DNA of 64,000 nt from Pseudomonadota bacterium (lineage in GTDB: Bacteria; Pseudomonadota; Gammaproteobacteria; Burkholderiales; Rhodocyclaceae): contig JAFEFC010000004.1 of NCBI GenBank assembly GCA_018240785.1, positions 27,003-91,002 on the forward strand, in the 5' to 3' direction. The position numbers and the translations under genes are program-made. The notes beneath the pieces are model-generated. The model worked only from the letters and a program-made list of their open reading frames with translations. It was not told where the DNA came from and searched no databases. This document shows, piece by piece, positions 7,184-17,855 of this stretch (position 1 is its first letter; every line of letters begins with the position of its first letter).

Positions 7184-7813
7184 TCAGCGCAGGCCGGCCG
7201 CGTAGTCGGCGACGGCCTTCATCTCGGGATCGGTCATCTTGAGCGCGATCATGCGCATCATGCGGTTCGGATCGTTGGCACGGACACCGTCGCGGAACGA
7301 CTTCAGTTGCGCTTCGGTGTAGTCGGCGAACTGGCCCGAGAGGCGCGGGTACTGCGCCGGCAGGCCGGCACCGGCCGGGCCGTGGCACGCCGCACAGGCG
7401 GGGACGCCCTTGGCCGGGATGCCACCGCGCCAGATCTTCTGGCCTTGGTCGACAGTGGCCACGTTCTTGGCCGGCTCGGGCTTCAGCGTCTGCGACGAGA
7501 AATACTCGGCCAGGCCTTTCATGTCAGACTCTTCCAGGCCGGCAGCCATTGCCGACATGATGGCGTTTTCACGCACGGCCTTCTTGCCGTCCCAGCTCTT
7601 GAACTCGTGCAACTGCTTGTAGAGGTAGTCGGCGTGCTGCCCTGCCAGCTTCGGGTTGGCCGGGATCGCGCTGTTGCCGTCCGCGTTGTGGCAGCCCGCG
7701 CAGACCGTCTCTGCAGTCTGCTTCGCCTTGGCGAGGTCGGGAGCCGGCGTCTGGGCCTGAAGGCTGCCGGCAACCAGCAGCAGCGACGAAAGCAGCAGGG
7801 AACGCTTCATCAT
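7184..7813 (-). CDS. Dihaem cytochrome c4, periplasmic
   Basis: Cytochrome c4 is a periplasmic two-haem electron carrier that feeds terminal oxidases. The 209-residue precursor starts with a Sec signal peptide (MMKRSLLLSSLLLVAGSLQAQ). It has two CXXCH haem sites in two similar halves: CAGCH near residue 39 and CAACH near residue 138. The likely axial methionines lie in the NAIMSAMA and NRMMRMIA segments. Size and architecture match cytochrome c4 (about 190-210 residues). The gene stands directly upstream of resB-ccsB, the machinery that attaches its haems, an arrangement common in betaproteobacteria. It is divergent from engB, with a 122-base spacer that must hold its promoter. Confidence 0.93.
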   Translation of the reverse strand: MMKRSLLLSSLLLVAGSLQAQTPAPDLAKAKQTAETVCAGCHNADGNSAIPANPKLAGQHADYLYKQLHEFKSWDGKKAVRENAIMSAMAAGLEESDMKGLAEYFSSQTLKPEPAKNVATVDQGQKIWRGGIPAKGVPACAACHGPAGAGLPAQYPRLSGQFADYTEAQLKSFRDGVRANDPNRMMRMIALKMTDPEMKAVADYAAGLR

Positions 7814-7935
7814 GATGTCCTCTGAAAGCCGTGAGTGAATGTTTCAAACGCGGTATTCTATCCCATGAAATGCGCCTTGCGCGATGCGATGTAGGCCTCA
7901 GCCCGCAGTCCAGCAGGTTTTCACCCGGTTTTTTC

Positions 7936-8586
7936 ATGTCATTGTTCCGCAACGCACAATTCGAGATCTCGATCGCCAAACCTTCCGGCCTCCCGCCGCT
8001 GAGCGGCGCGGAGATCGCCTTCGCAGGGCGTTCCAACGCCGGCAAGTCCAGCGCGATCAACACGCTGGCGGGGCATGTGAGGCTCGCCTTCGTGTCGAAG
8101 ACGCCGGGGCGCACGCAACTGATCAACTTCTTCCGCCTCAACTGCGGCGCCTTGCTGGTCGATCTGCCCGGCTACGGCTATGCCGCCGTGCCGGAGAAGA
8201 TCCGCCGCCAGTGGCAGGGGCTGATCGAGGCCTACCTGAAGAAGCGTGAGAGCCTGATCGGCCTGGTGCTGATCATGGACGTGCGCCGTCCGCTCACCGA
8301 CCTCGATCGGCAGATGATCGACTGGTTCGCGCCCTCCGGTCGGCCGCTTCACGTGCTGCTCACGAAGAGCGACAAGCTGTCGCGTGGCGCAGCGAGTGCG
8401 ACACTGCAGGCCGTGCGGCGGGAGCTGGCCGGGTTTGGGCCGCAGGTGACCGTGCAGCTCTTCTCCAGCCTCAAGAAGGCCGGCGTGGAGGAAACCGAGC
8501 GCATCATCGCCGGCTGGCTGGGGTTGGGCGCGGCCGATGGCAGCGCCGGCAGGCAGGAAACAAAAACCCCCGACCAGGGGATATAG
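7936..8586 (+). CDS. engB: Ribosome biogenesis GTP-binding protein EngB (YsxC/YihA)
   Basis: EngB is an essential TrmE-Era-EngA-like GTPase needed for assembly of the large ribosomal subunit. The 216-residue protein has all G motifs: G1 GRSNAGKSS near residue 33, G2 threonines in KTPGRTQLINFF, G3 DLPGYGYA, G4 TKSDKL and G5 SSLKKAG. The ATG at 7936 gives the family N-terminus; the frame is open further upstream but that part is not conserved. The C-terminal tail after residue 200 is short and polar. Its last codons overlap the U-tract terminator of a candidate minus-strand small RNA. hemB follows on the same strand after about 220 bases. Confidence 0.95.
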   Translation: MSLFRNAQFEISIAKPSGLPPLSGAEIAFAGRSNAGKSSAINTLAGHVRLAFVSKTPGRTQLINFFRLNCGALLVDLPGYGYAAVPEKIRRQWQGLIEAYLKKRESLIGLVLIMDVRRPLTDLDRQMIDWFAPSGRPLHVLLTKSDKLSRGAASATLQAVRRELAGFGPQVTVQLFSSLKKAGVEETERIIAGWLGLGAADGSAGRQETKTPDQGI

Positions 8587-8665
8587 CCGGGGGTGAAAAT
8601 GCCTTACTGGGGGGTAAGGCACCCGCTCAGGGAGGTGAAGCGGGAGACGGCTCAGCACCATCTGC
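8561..8665 (-). ncRNA. Candidate small RNA with C-rich hairpin loops
   Basis: Read on the minus strand, this stretch holds three hairpins. The first has stem cccgct/agcggg (8622-8627 with 8639-8644) and loop tcacctccctg. The second has an eight-pair perfect stem (8600-8607 with 8614-8621) and loop ccccca. The third has a seven-pair stem acccccg/cgggggt (8566-8572 with 8588-8594), a loop containing atcccct, and a run of five T directly after it. The third is a classic Rho-independent terminator on the minus strand, yet no minus-strand protein gene precedes it. C-rich loops complementary to Shine-Dalgarno sequences are typical of several proteobacterial trans-acting small RNAs. A weak -10 (TATCTT, 8671-8676) would give about 105 nucleotides; I see no good -35. 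Confidence 0.45.
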
Positions 8666-8751
8666 ACTCTAAGATAGACCATCGCGCAAGAAGTTCATGA
8701 TCGATTTCGTTTCTGCATGTTTTTCGGAGCCGGGGTGAGCGCCGGTGCTGA

Positions 8752-9822
<1,071 letters not shown>

Positions 9823-16370: not shown

Positions 16371-17855
16371 GTGGGCGCGAAGTGCCGCAGCGGTGCGATC
16401 GTGCGTGCTGCGCTGATCTCCCTGGTGCTGCCGGTGGCGGCCGCCGGCCTGCCCGGCCTGGCCGGTGCGCAATCCGGCGGCGACCTCACCGACAAGCGTT
16501 CGGATCTCGACGACCTCAAGCGACGCATTCGCGACCTGCAGAAGGAGATGGCGCAGACCGAAGCGTCGCGCTCGGGTGCTGCGGACGCGGTAGCCGAAGC
16601 GGAGCGCGCGGTGTCGCGCGTGCAGCGCAGCCTGCGTGAGGTCGAGGGCCAGCGCGGCAATGCCGAAAAGGAGATTGCGTCGCTCGAGGAGCAGCAGCAG
16701 GCGGTGCTCGCGCGTATTGCGATGCGCCAGGGAGAGCTTGGCGACTGGCTGCGCCGCCATTACATGCACGGACCGGCGGACGGCGTCGCGCCGCTGCTGG
16801 CCGAGCGCGATCCGAACCAGATCGCGCGCGACGCGCATTATCTCGAGCATCTCGGCCGCGCGCGGCTGGCGCTGATCGAGGGGCTGCGCTCGGACTTGCG
16901 CGACACCCGCGCGCGGGCGACCGACATCGCCGCGCGCCGCGACCGCCTTGCGGCGCTCGAATCCGAACAGCGCCGTCAGCAGGGCGAGCTCGAGTCCGTC
17001 CATGCCCAGCGGCGGCAAGCCCTTGCCGCACTCTCGGCTCAACTGCGGGATCAGCGCAAGGAAGTGACCGACCTGCAGCAGGACGAGCAGCGCCTTGCGC
17101 GCCTCATCGACACCCTGGTCAGGCGCGCACGCGAGCAGGCGGCGCGCGAGGCGGCCCGCCGGGCGGCCGAGCAACGCGCCGCCGAACGCCGCGCCGCCGA
17201 ACTGAAGGCGGCGGAACAGCGTGCGGCTGCACAACGCGCAGCGGAGCAGCGTGCGGCGGACCAACGCGCGGCCGAACAGCGGGCTGCCCAGGCCCGATCG
17301 GGCGAGATTACGCCCGCGCCGGCGGCTGCTGCGGCTGCCGCGCGGACCGAAGTGGCGTCCTCCCCGCCGAGTGCGCCGGCGCCTGCTCCGGCGCGCCGTG
17401 CCGAGCCGGTGGTCGCGGAGGTGGCGCGCAGTGCCGGGCCGACGCCCACCGGCGTCAGTTTCGGCCAGTTGCGGGGCCAACTGCATCTGCCGGTGCGCGG
17501 AGAACTGATCGGACGTTTCGGTGCTCAAAGGGCGGAAGGCGGAACCACCTGGAAGGGCGTGTTCGTTCGCGCTGCCGGGGGCAGCGAGGTGAGGGCGGTT
17601 GCCGCTGGCGAAGTCGTGTATTCCGACTGGCTGCGCGGCTATGGCAACCTGCTGATCATCGACCACGGCAGCGATTACCTGTCCGTATATGGCAACAACG
17701 ACGCCCTGCTGAAGGAAGTGGGCGCCGTGGTGAAGGGCGGGGATGTCGTCGCCAGCGTCGGGGCGGGCGGAAGCTCGGCGGATTCGGGTTTATACTTCGA
17801 GATCCGCCATCAGGGCCGGCCGCTCGATCCCATGCAGTGGGTCAGGCTCAGATAG
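16371..17855 (+). CDS. EnvC-like murein hydrolase activator (M23/LytM domain)
   Basis: This 494-residue exported protein has an N-terminal signal peptide (AALISLVLPVAAAGLPGLAGAQ). A long coiled coil (residues about 40-260) follows, then an Ala/Arg/Glu-rich repeat of the type RAAEQRAAERRAAELKAAEQ (about 265-305), a proline/alanine linker, and a C-terminal LytM/M23 domain (about 375-494). The LytM domain keeps GRFG and HGSDYLSVYGNN but lacks the first zinc histidine of active enzymes (GTTWKG instead of H-x3-D). That suggests an EnvC-type activator of amidases at the division site rather than a peptidase. The start is a GTG; upstream ATGs are not in frame. ctpA follows 49 bases downstream. Confidence 0.87.
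   Translation: MGAKCRSGAIVRAALISLVLPVAAAGLPGLAGAQSGGDLTDKRSDLDDLKRRIRDLQKEMAQTEASRSGAADAVAEAERAVSRVQRSLREVEGQRGNAEKEIASLEEQQQAVLARIAMRQGELGDWLRRHYMHGPADGVAPLLAERDPNQIARDAHYLEHLGRARLALIEGLRSDLRDTRARATDIAARRDRLAALESEQRRQQGELESVHAQRRQALAALSAQLRDQRKEVTDLQQDEQRLARLIDTLVRRAREQAAREAARRAAEQRAAERRAAELKAAEQRAAAQRAAEQRAADQRAAEQRAAQARSGEITPAPAAAAAAARTEVASSPPSAPAPAPARRAEPVVAEVARSAGPTPTGVSFGQLRGQLHLPVRGELIGRFGAQRAEGGTTWKGVFVRAAGGSEVRAVAAGEVVYSDWLRGYGNLLIIDHGSDYLSVYGNNDALLKEVGAVVKGGDVVASVGAGGSSADSGLYFEIRHQGRPLDPMQWVRLR

Follow-up and report, generated by a model that had tools for sequence, protein, structure and literature searches.

The stretch of DNA analysed here, 64 kb long and called the window in what follows, belongs to an order that is taken as Burkholderiales, class Gammaproteobacteria, in the GTDB sense. 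Between engB and hemB, the minus strand of the window carries a predicted small RNA gene, which is convergent to the former and divergent from the latter (Table 1). Positions 8559-8647 of this strand match the Rfam family RF02837 (anti-hemB) with 74.9 bits, the cut-off being 49.5, over positions 1-81 of the 81 of the model; this is the sole match at gathering score returned by the Rfam search of the whole window. Judged by its sequence, the RNA at 8561-8664(-) is an ordinary new member of this catalogued family, also known as Burkholderia RNA 7 or ncS04, with which it shares loop 1 CCUCCCUGAGCGGG, the terminator, the engB-hemB synteny and a score over the cut-off. The original prediction had described a candidate small RNA; an sRNA gene with a Shine-Dalgarno complement in its loop is indeed present, and it proved to be RF02837 rather than an uncharacterised RNA. 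At lower scores, a search with E values up to 1, which covered 8400-8900, gave seven matches; the models of sX13 (RF02232) and alpha-r7, or ar7 (RF02342), reach 18.6 bits against a cut-off of 50, below membership, and 17.0 bits against a cut-off of 60, respectively. Spot 42 (RF00021) has no gathering match in the window and none at E up to 1 in 8400-8900.

Table 1. Features of the engB-hemB interval in the window (positions of the window)
Feature	Position	Strand	Basis
engB (EngB/YihA-type GTPase), convergent to the RNA gene	7936..8586	+	ORF
Intrinsic terminator (hairpin 8594-8566 with UCCCC in its loop, followed by a U tract)	8559..8594	-	Terminator scan, covariation, fold
Predicted anti-hemB transcript, ~104 nt	8561..8664, 3' end ~8561/8559	-	Rfam match, fold; 5' end inferred from the -10 element
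Hairpin 2, loop CCCCCA at 8608-8613	8600..8621	-	Covarying stem; loop sequence shared by part of the order only
Hairpin 1; loop region with CACCUCCCUG at 8628-8637	8622..8644	-	Fold, alignment
5' hairpin, outside the Rfam model (stem 8663-8657 / 8651-8645)	8645..8663	-	Folds; stem conservation in the order
TCTTA, -10 element, 16 nt from GAACTT	8670..8674	-	In 27/28 same-genus rows
GAACTT, -35 element, sigma-E/AlgU-like	8691..8696	-	Upstream in 28/28 same-genus rows
hemB, divergent from the RNA gene	8806..9822 (listed ORF from 8767; 8806 is an in-frame ATG)	+	ORF

In the excerpted text of PMC5688073, the anti-hemB RNA of B. cenocepacia is ncS04, a 105-nt RNA tabled among the strongly expressed candidates, with its function unassigned, and cited as Hfq-bound; the B. 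pseudomallei anti-hemB RNA is listed in the excerpt of PMC3521395. A full-text literature search for RF02837 returned no paper. Among titles and abstract openings, a scope that takes in few subscription journals, none joins anti-hemB with sX13 or ErsA and none reports a sigma-E promoter for anti-hemB. PmaR likewise has a C-rich loop, but the excerpt on it (PMC6234868) gave no link to anti-hemB, and the "anti-hemB" of the excerpt of PMC6515984 was discarded, being an antibody and not an RNA.

The 104 nt from 8664 to 8561 of the minus strand fold at -49.4 kcal/mol, whereas 200 shuffled sequences have a mean of -31.97 (sd 3.32) and none is as stable (z = -5.25); over the longer stretch 8550-8680, z is -3.60 for the minus strand and -1.59 for the plus strand. 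A terminator scan of 7500-9800 gave two matches (mean of shuffles, 1.3), both on the same minus-strand hairpin, which overlaps the last engB codons. Thus, fold and scan place on the minus strand the three hairpins, the three loops and the U-tract terminator that the original prediction had put there. Its extent of 8561-8665 was right as to location, but it missed a fourth hairpin, at the 5' end, and the predicted transcript runs from about 8664 to 8561/8559. The six central bases of loop 1, CACCUCCCUG, have an unpaired probability of 1.0, and this unpaired core is complementary to a strong Shine-Dalgarno motif; the loop itself resembles, as we take it, the 3' tail of 16S rRNA.

Structure and sequence are kept among relatives. 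The Rfam model has matches at E <= 0.001 in 56 of 61 related genomes, the own genome included, 55 of them over the family cut-off; G026, the one genome of the genus that gave no match, is 77% complete. Among the matches listed, the closest named locus is that of a Thauera sp. MAG, at 79% over 5.6 kb, which makes Thauera or a near relative the probable source of the window. In an alignment of 48 sequences, window included, 94.1% of the cells are paired and 14 of 21 pairs have changed on both sides; none of 500 shuffles is as high on any of five measures, and with slid partners the paired fraction falls to 32-57%. The same alignment displays the three-stem RF02837 consensus with compensatory changes, and loop 1 is near-invariant among the relatives. 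Loss of the stems and loops in relatives, which the original prediction had named as evidence against itself, is therefore not what is seen, since the stems and loop 1 are kept.

The three C-rich loops of the original prediction are present in the window, but they do not fare equally among relatives. In a second alignment of 109 rows, made of 26 rows of the order (26 of the 55 relatives, mostly from other genera) and 83 others, CUCCC in loop 1 is found in 25/26 rows of the order and 72/83 of the other rows, CCC in loop 3 in 24/26 and 54/83, and CCC in loop 2 in 7/26 and 70/83, so that all three loops are C-rich in 7/26 and 44/83 rows, respectively. Loop 1 is strongly conserved, but within the order of the window a C-rich loop 2 is no general feature. 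The window RNA is further distinguished from RF02837 by the covarying 5' hairpin described here, whose stem has several pair types at positions 4 and 6. All six positions of this stem pair in 42 of the order's 55 relatives; once the upstream sequence is shuffled, the figure is 4.1, and 9 at most. Since the signal outside the order is weakly above that of shuffles (15/77 against 6.3, with one of the 77 rows misplaced, and 16/52 against 4.8), the 5' hairpin is claimed for the order only.

The RNA extends well beyond the order. In a class sample of 274 genomes, own included, the Rfam anti-hemB model matches 71 genomes at E <= 1e-6, of which only 14 are over the cut-off; at gathering scores, the 29 new loci of the class search gave anti-hemB, one unrelated riboswitch and no other family. 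Among 70 genomes outside the order, EngB or PolA is found in the fetched stretch in 57, with EngB downstream and convergent in 40 and PolA upstream on the same strand in 39; EngB has the opposite arrangement in 4, and 13 have neither gene, four of these with cytochrome c4. A model built solely from the window's order (R1) and run on 95 chosen sources gave 109 matches in 408 kb. A further model (R2), whose alignment was fitted to the structure so that its pair counts lean towards that structure, matches at least 132 of the 274 class genomes at E <= 1e-4. Of the R2 matches listed, 64 are in genomes new with respect to the Rfam-model search, and 52 of these were fetched (E up to 3.0e-6), 12 weaker ones being left; none of the 52 was used in building R2, although some share families with genomes that were. 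EngB or PolA adjoins the RNA in 43 of them and neither in 9, EngB being convergent downstream in 35 and PolA upstream in 30. In a wider sample of the phylum, comprising 299 genomes, R2 has matches in 23 at E <= 1e-4, and the RNA is thus by no means present everywhere; five phylum-sample genomes outside the class, at E 2e-5 to 1e-4, were excluded from the counts.

Upstream of the RNA gene lies the pair GAACTT-N16-TCTTA, which we liken to the sigma-E/AlgU consensus (GGAACTT-N15-18-TCNNA); neither this motif nor the 5' hairpin figured in the original prediction. The window lacks the strict form GGAACTT-N15-18-TC[TA]NA, as the site reads TGAACTT. A loose form, GAACT-N15-19-TC[TAC]NA, occurs in 48 of the 54 upstream regions taken from the order; outside it, a first set has this form at 44 of 77 matches, belonging to 41 of 70 genomes, and a second one at 33 of 51; 200 first-order Markov resamplings of the three sets (one row misplaced) gave means of 0.26, 0.35 and 0.23 and maxima of 3, 5 and 2, and the reverse strand (one row misplaced) gave 0, 0 and 1. 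Elsewhere in the 64 kb, the loose form recurs just once, at 17502 (+). The own genome encodes both RpoE (342.6 bits, NCBIfam cut-off 236.15) and Hfq (103.6 bits, cut-off 27).

The motif is not shared by the whole family. In named loci, which were selected by the exact loop pattern, both engB and hemB, the location typical of RF02837, are found in 103 of 120 among those listed, and the loose motif in only 40 of 119 among those listed. In its place, TATATGATA or TATATCATA is seen at the loci printed for Burkholderia, Paraburkholderia, Pandoraea and Trinickia; the window RNA, with its sigma-E-like promoter, thus differs from the printed Burkholderia loci, B. cenocepacia not being among them, and their TATATGATA-like -10. 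Some other named loci, for instance that of Thiobacillus (L101), are near-misses to the motif, and two sX13 genes are devoid of GAACTT. Because the motif is absent from Burkholderia-type loci and from the sX13 genes, the promoter is to be considered a property of part of the family. At seven Paraburkholderia, Burkholderia, Pandoraea and Trinickia loci (L042, L045, L048, L056, L069, L095 and L116), TATATGATA or TATATCATA stands where relatives have a sigma-E-like -10, an apparent promoter switch.

On the whole, we consider it likely that the window encodes a trans-acting anti-hemB sRNA, transcribed from a sigma-E-type promoter and blocking G-rich ribosome-binding sites through loop 1 under envelope stress. 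The promoter would start the RNA near 8664 and the intrinsic terminator would end it near 8561; the transcript would fold into the 5' hairpin, two further hairpins and the terminator, and loop 1 would pair with ribosome-binding sites of the GGGAGG type. Under envelope stress, such pairing would keep several mRNAs from being translated, probably with the help of Hfq. Repression of several mRNAs is proposed by analogy with the C-rich motifs of sX13, an RNA that, in the excerpted text of PMC3771888, is encoded downstream of polA, contains hairpins with C-rich loops and represses mRNAs with G-rich motifs near their translation starts; this activity depends on the C-rich motifs and on the G-rich ones of the targets, although compensating mutations did not restore repression. 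As sX13 is Hfq-independent (same excerpt), participation of Hfq in the window RNA is made less probable. For this RNA of a family already catalogued, the promoter motif points to a testable role in envelope stress.

Control by sigma-E is suggested by the frequency of the motif in the upstream regions of the order, by the presence of RpoE in the genome and by the control of ErsA by sigma-22, described below; Hfq, also encoded in the genome, and ncS04, cited as Hfq-bound, are further points for the reading as a whole. Control by sigma-E is weakened by the absence of the strict consensus, by the low count among the named loci, by the Burkholderia-type loci with TATATGATA or TATATCATA and by ncS04, for which the qPCR table in the excerpt of PMC5688073 gives no significant change in any condition tabled. 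The last point, together with the constitutive expression of sX13 (excerpt of PMC3771888) and the TATATGATA-like -10 that replaces the motif in the printed Burkholderiaceae loci, would fit a constitutive sigma-70 sRNA, endowed with the same loop-1 mechanism, in which GAACTT/TCTNA is bound by another factor or is a relic. We judge this unlikely, since the three sets have kept both the internal spacing of the motif (17-18 nt in the order, GAACT being the starting point) and how far it lies from the RNA (median 50-52 nt); a sigma-70 promoter-like site is also lacking in 7500-9800, which has little weight, only 0.3 being expected by chance.

A second alternative would see in the anti-hemB sRNA a cis-antisense RNA acting on its neighbours, either on engB through the 3' overlap or on hemB, as the family name implies. 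The Rfam match and the engB reading frame have 28 nt in common, the gap from the RNA to the EngB match has a median of -17.5 (an overlap) in the order, and EngB flanks the RNA, as does an upstream and divergent HemB, in 50 of 55 relatives of the order each; moreover, hemB is a predicted target of Bc7 in the excerpt of a review (PMC6321483), and Bc7, going by the names, is probably the anti-hemB RNA. In the other orders, conversely, the RNA stops short of the EngB match, with medians of 42.5 and 34 nt in two sets, and the usual upstream neighbour is PolA (39/70 and 30/52 genomes). Since the RNA ends short there, the antisense overlap with engB looks incidental and is probably not what matters about the RNA. 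Conservation, furthermore, sits in the stems and in loop 1. Pairing of loop 1 with the hemB leader has an energy of -12.4 kcal/mol, a value reached by 30 of 300 shuffles, so that hemB as a target is poorly supported by pairing energy. Altogether, action in cis is regarded as improbable. That the locus is nothing more than a one-way terminator beside a few hairpins, giving rise to no RNA of its own, as its strong terminator might suggest, is scarcely credible, given that loop 1 and the three stems have been maintained, with compensatory changes, that directly upstream there is no known minus-strand gene to terminate, as the original prediction had remarked, but only unannotated minus-strand frames, and that the excerpt of PMC5688073 lists a transcript of 105 nt for the family member in B. 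cenocepacia.

The trans-acting sRNA of the window can be compared with several RNAs named in other bacteria. The likeness to sX13, raised in the original prediction, was a good lead, because model R1, built from the order only, recovers both genes over the sX13 cut-off (L267 and L266, E 6e-5 and 1e-3), and also L270 of G197 at 1.7e-4. In the class sample, the sX13 model has seven matches, two of them true; it coincides with the anti-hemB model in G142 and G294 and falls on the same copy as R1 in G231 and G197, while in G183 its match lies elsewhere than the anti-hemB one. The sX13 and anti-hemB models match each other's loci with polA synteny, and shared C-rich composition could aid such matches. 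In the excerpt of PMC3771888, alpha-r7 (RF02342) is described with three stem-loops bearing C-rich motifs at the polA locus, and it is already remarked there that this locus is common to sX13, Spot 42 and alpha-r7.

The original prediction had pointed to engB as a known home of regulatory RNAs, naming Spot 42 and ErsA. In E. coli the layout is polA-spf-yihA(engB), with yihA convergent to spf as engB is to the RNA here. In Pseudomonas aeruginosa, according to the excerpt of PMC8575079, the envelope-stress factor sigma-22 triggers ErsA, which is encoded in the spacer between polA and engB and binds anr through a U-rich unstructured domain. ErsA is likened to the window RNA by locus and description: the engB side and the loose promoter motif are present, but the other neighbour in the window is hemB and not polA. 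Spot 42 as a homologue, tried with R2, is not supported, spf scoring 14.3 bits and two other places in the same 8 kb scoring 20.1 and 14.3.

The shared locus and the cross-matching models suggest a single family behind the RNAs that carry separate names in Burkholderia and Xanthomonas, and possibly in Pseudomonas. A broader hypothesis, for which we see even chances, is that anti-hemB, sX13 and the unnamed RNAs, found in about half of the sampled class genomes, form one ancient, sigma-E-controlled family with an anti-Shine-Dalgarno loop, which has stood beside engB since before the split of beta- and gammaproteobacteria; ErsA, and perhaps Spot 42, would be diverged descendants, and the Burkholderia and Xanthomonas lineages would have lost the ancestral promoter.

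The exact complement of loop 1, CAGGGAGGTG, occurs 12 times in the own genome, once as the RNA gene itself, against 2 occurrences of the reversed pattern; none of these places in the own genome has a convincing start codon just downstream. The pattern CAGGGAGG-N4-9-ATG occurs 20 times, against 1 for its reverse. In five genomes of the genus taken together, CAGGGAGG-type sites are followed by 53 frames of at least 60 aa; among them, a livG-like gene alone is common to four genomes and three others are common to two. This livG-like ABC transporter gene, with CAGGGAGG ahead of 14 of its 19 close orthologues in the genus, is the only repeated target candidate; the count comprises orthologues with at least 86% identity, eight weaker ones (71% identity) having been dropped and 8 of 29 genomes having no match. 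The site falls within the final codons of the frame that precedes the gene, and may therefore have been conserved for a different reason.

Additional copies of the RNA were also noticed. In the own genome there are eight further matches, with E values of 0.003 to 9.4; seven of these eight places (L002-L008) are without EngB, HemB, cytochrome c4, ResB and the promoter motif. Two to five nearby copies are found at L228 (G231), L231 (G323), L250 (G302), L214 (G188), L232 (G208), L175 (G166), L255 (G322) and L256 (G210), a habit of tandem arrays in which some copies score only 22-28 bits. In G549, a genome of the same order, five R2 matches are distributed over contigs C10, C1 and C14 and possibly constitute a set of sibling RNAs.
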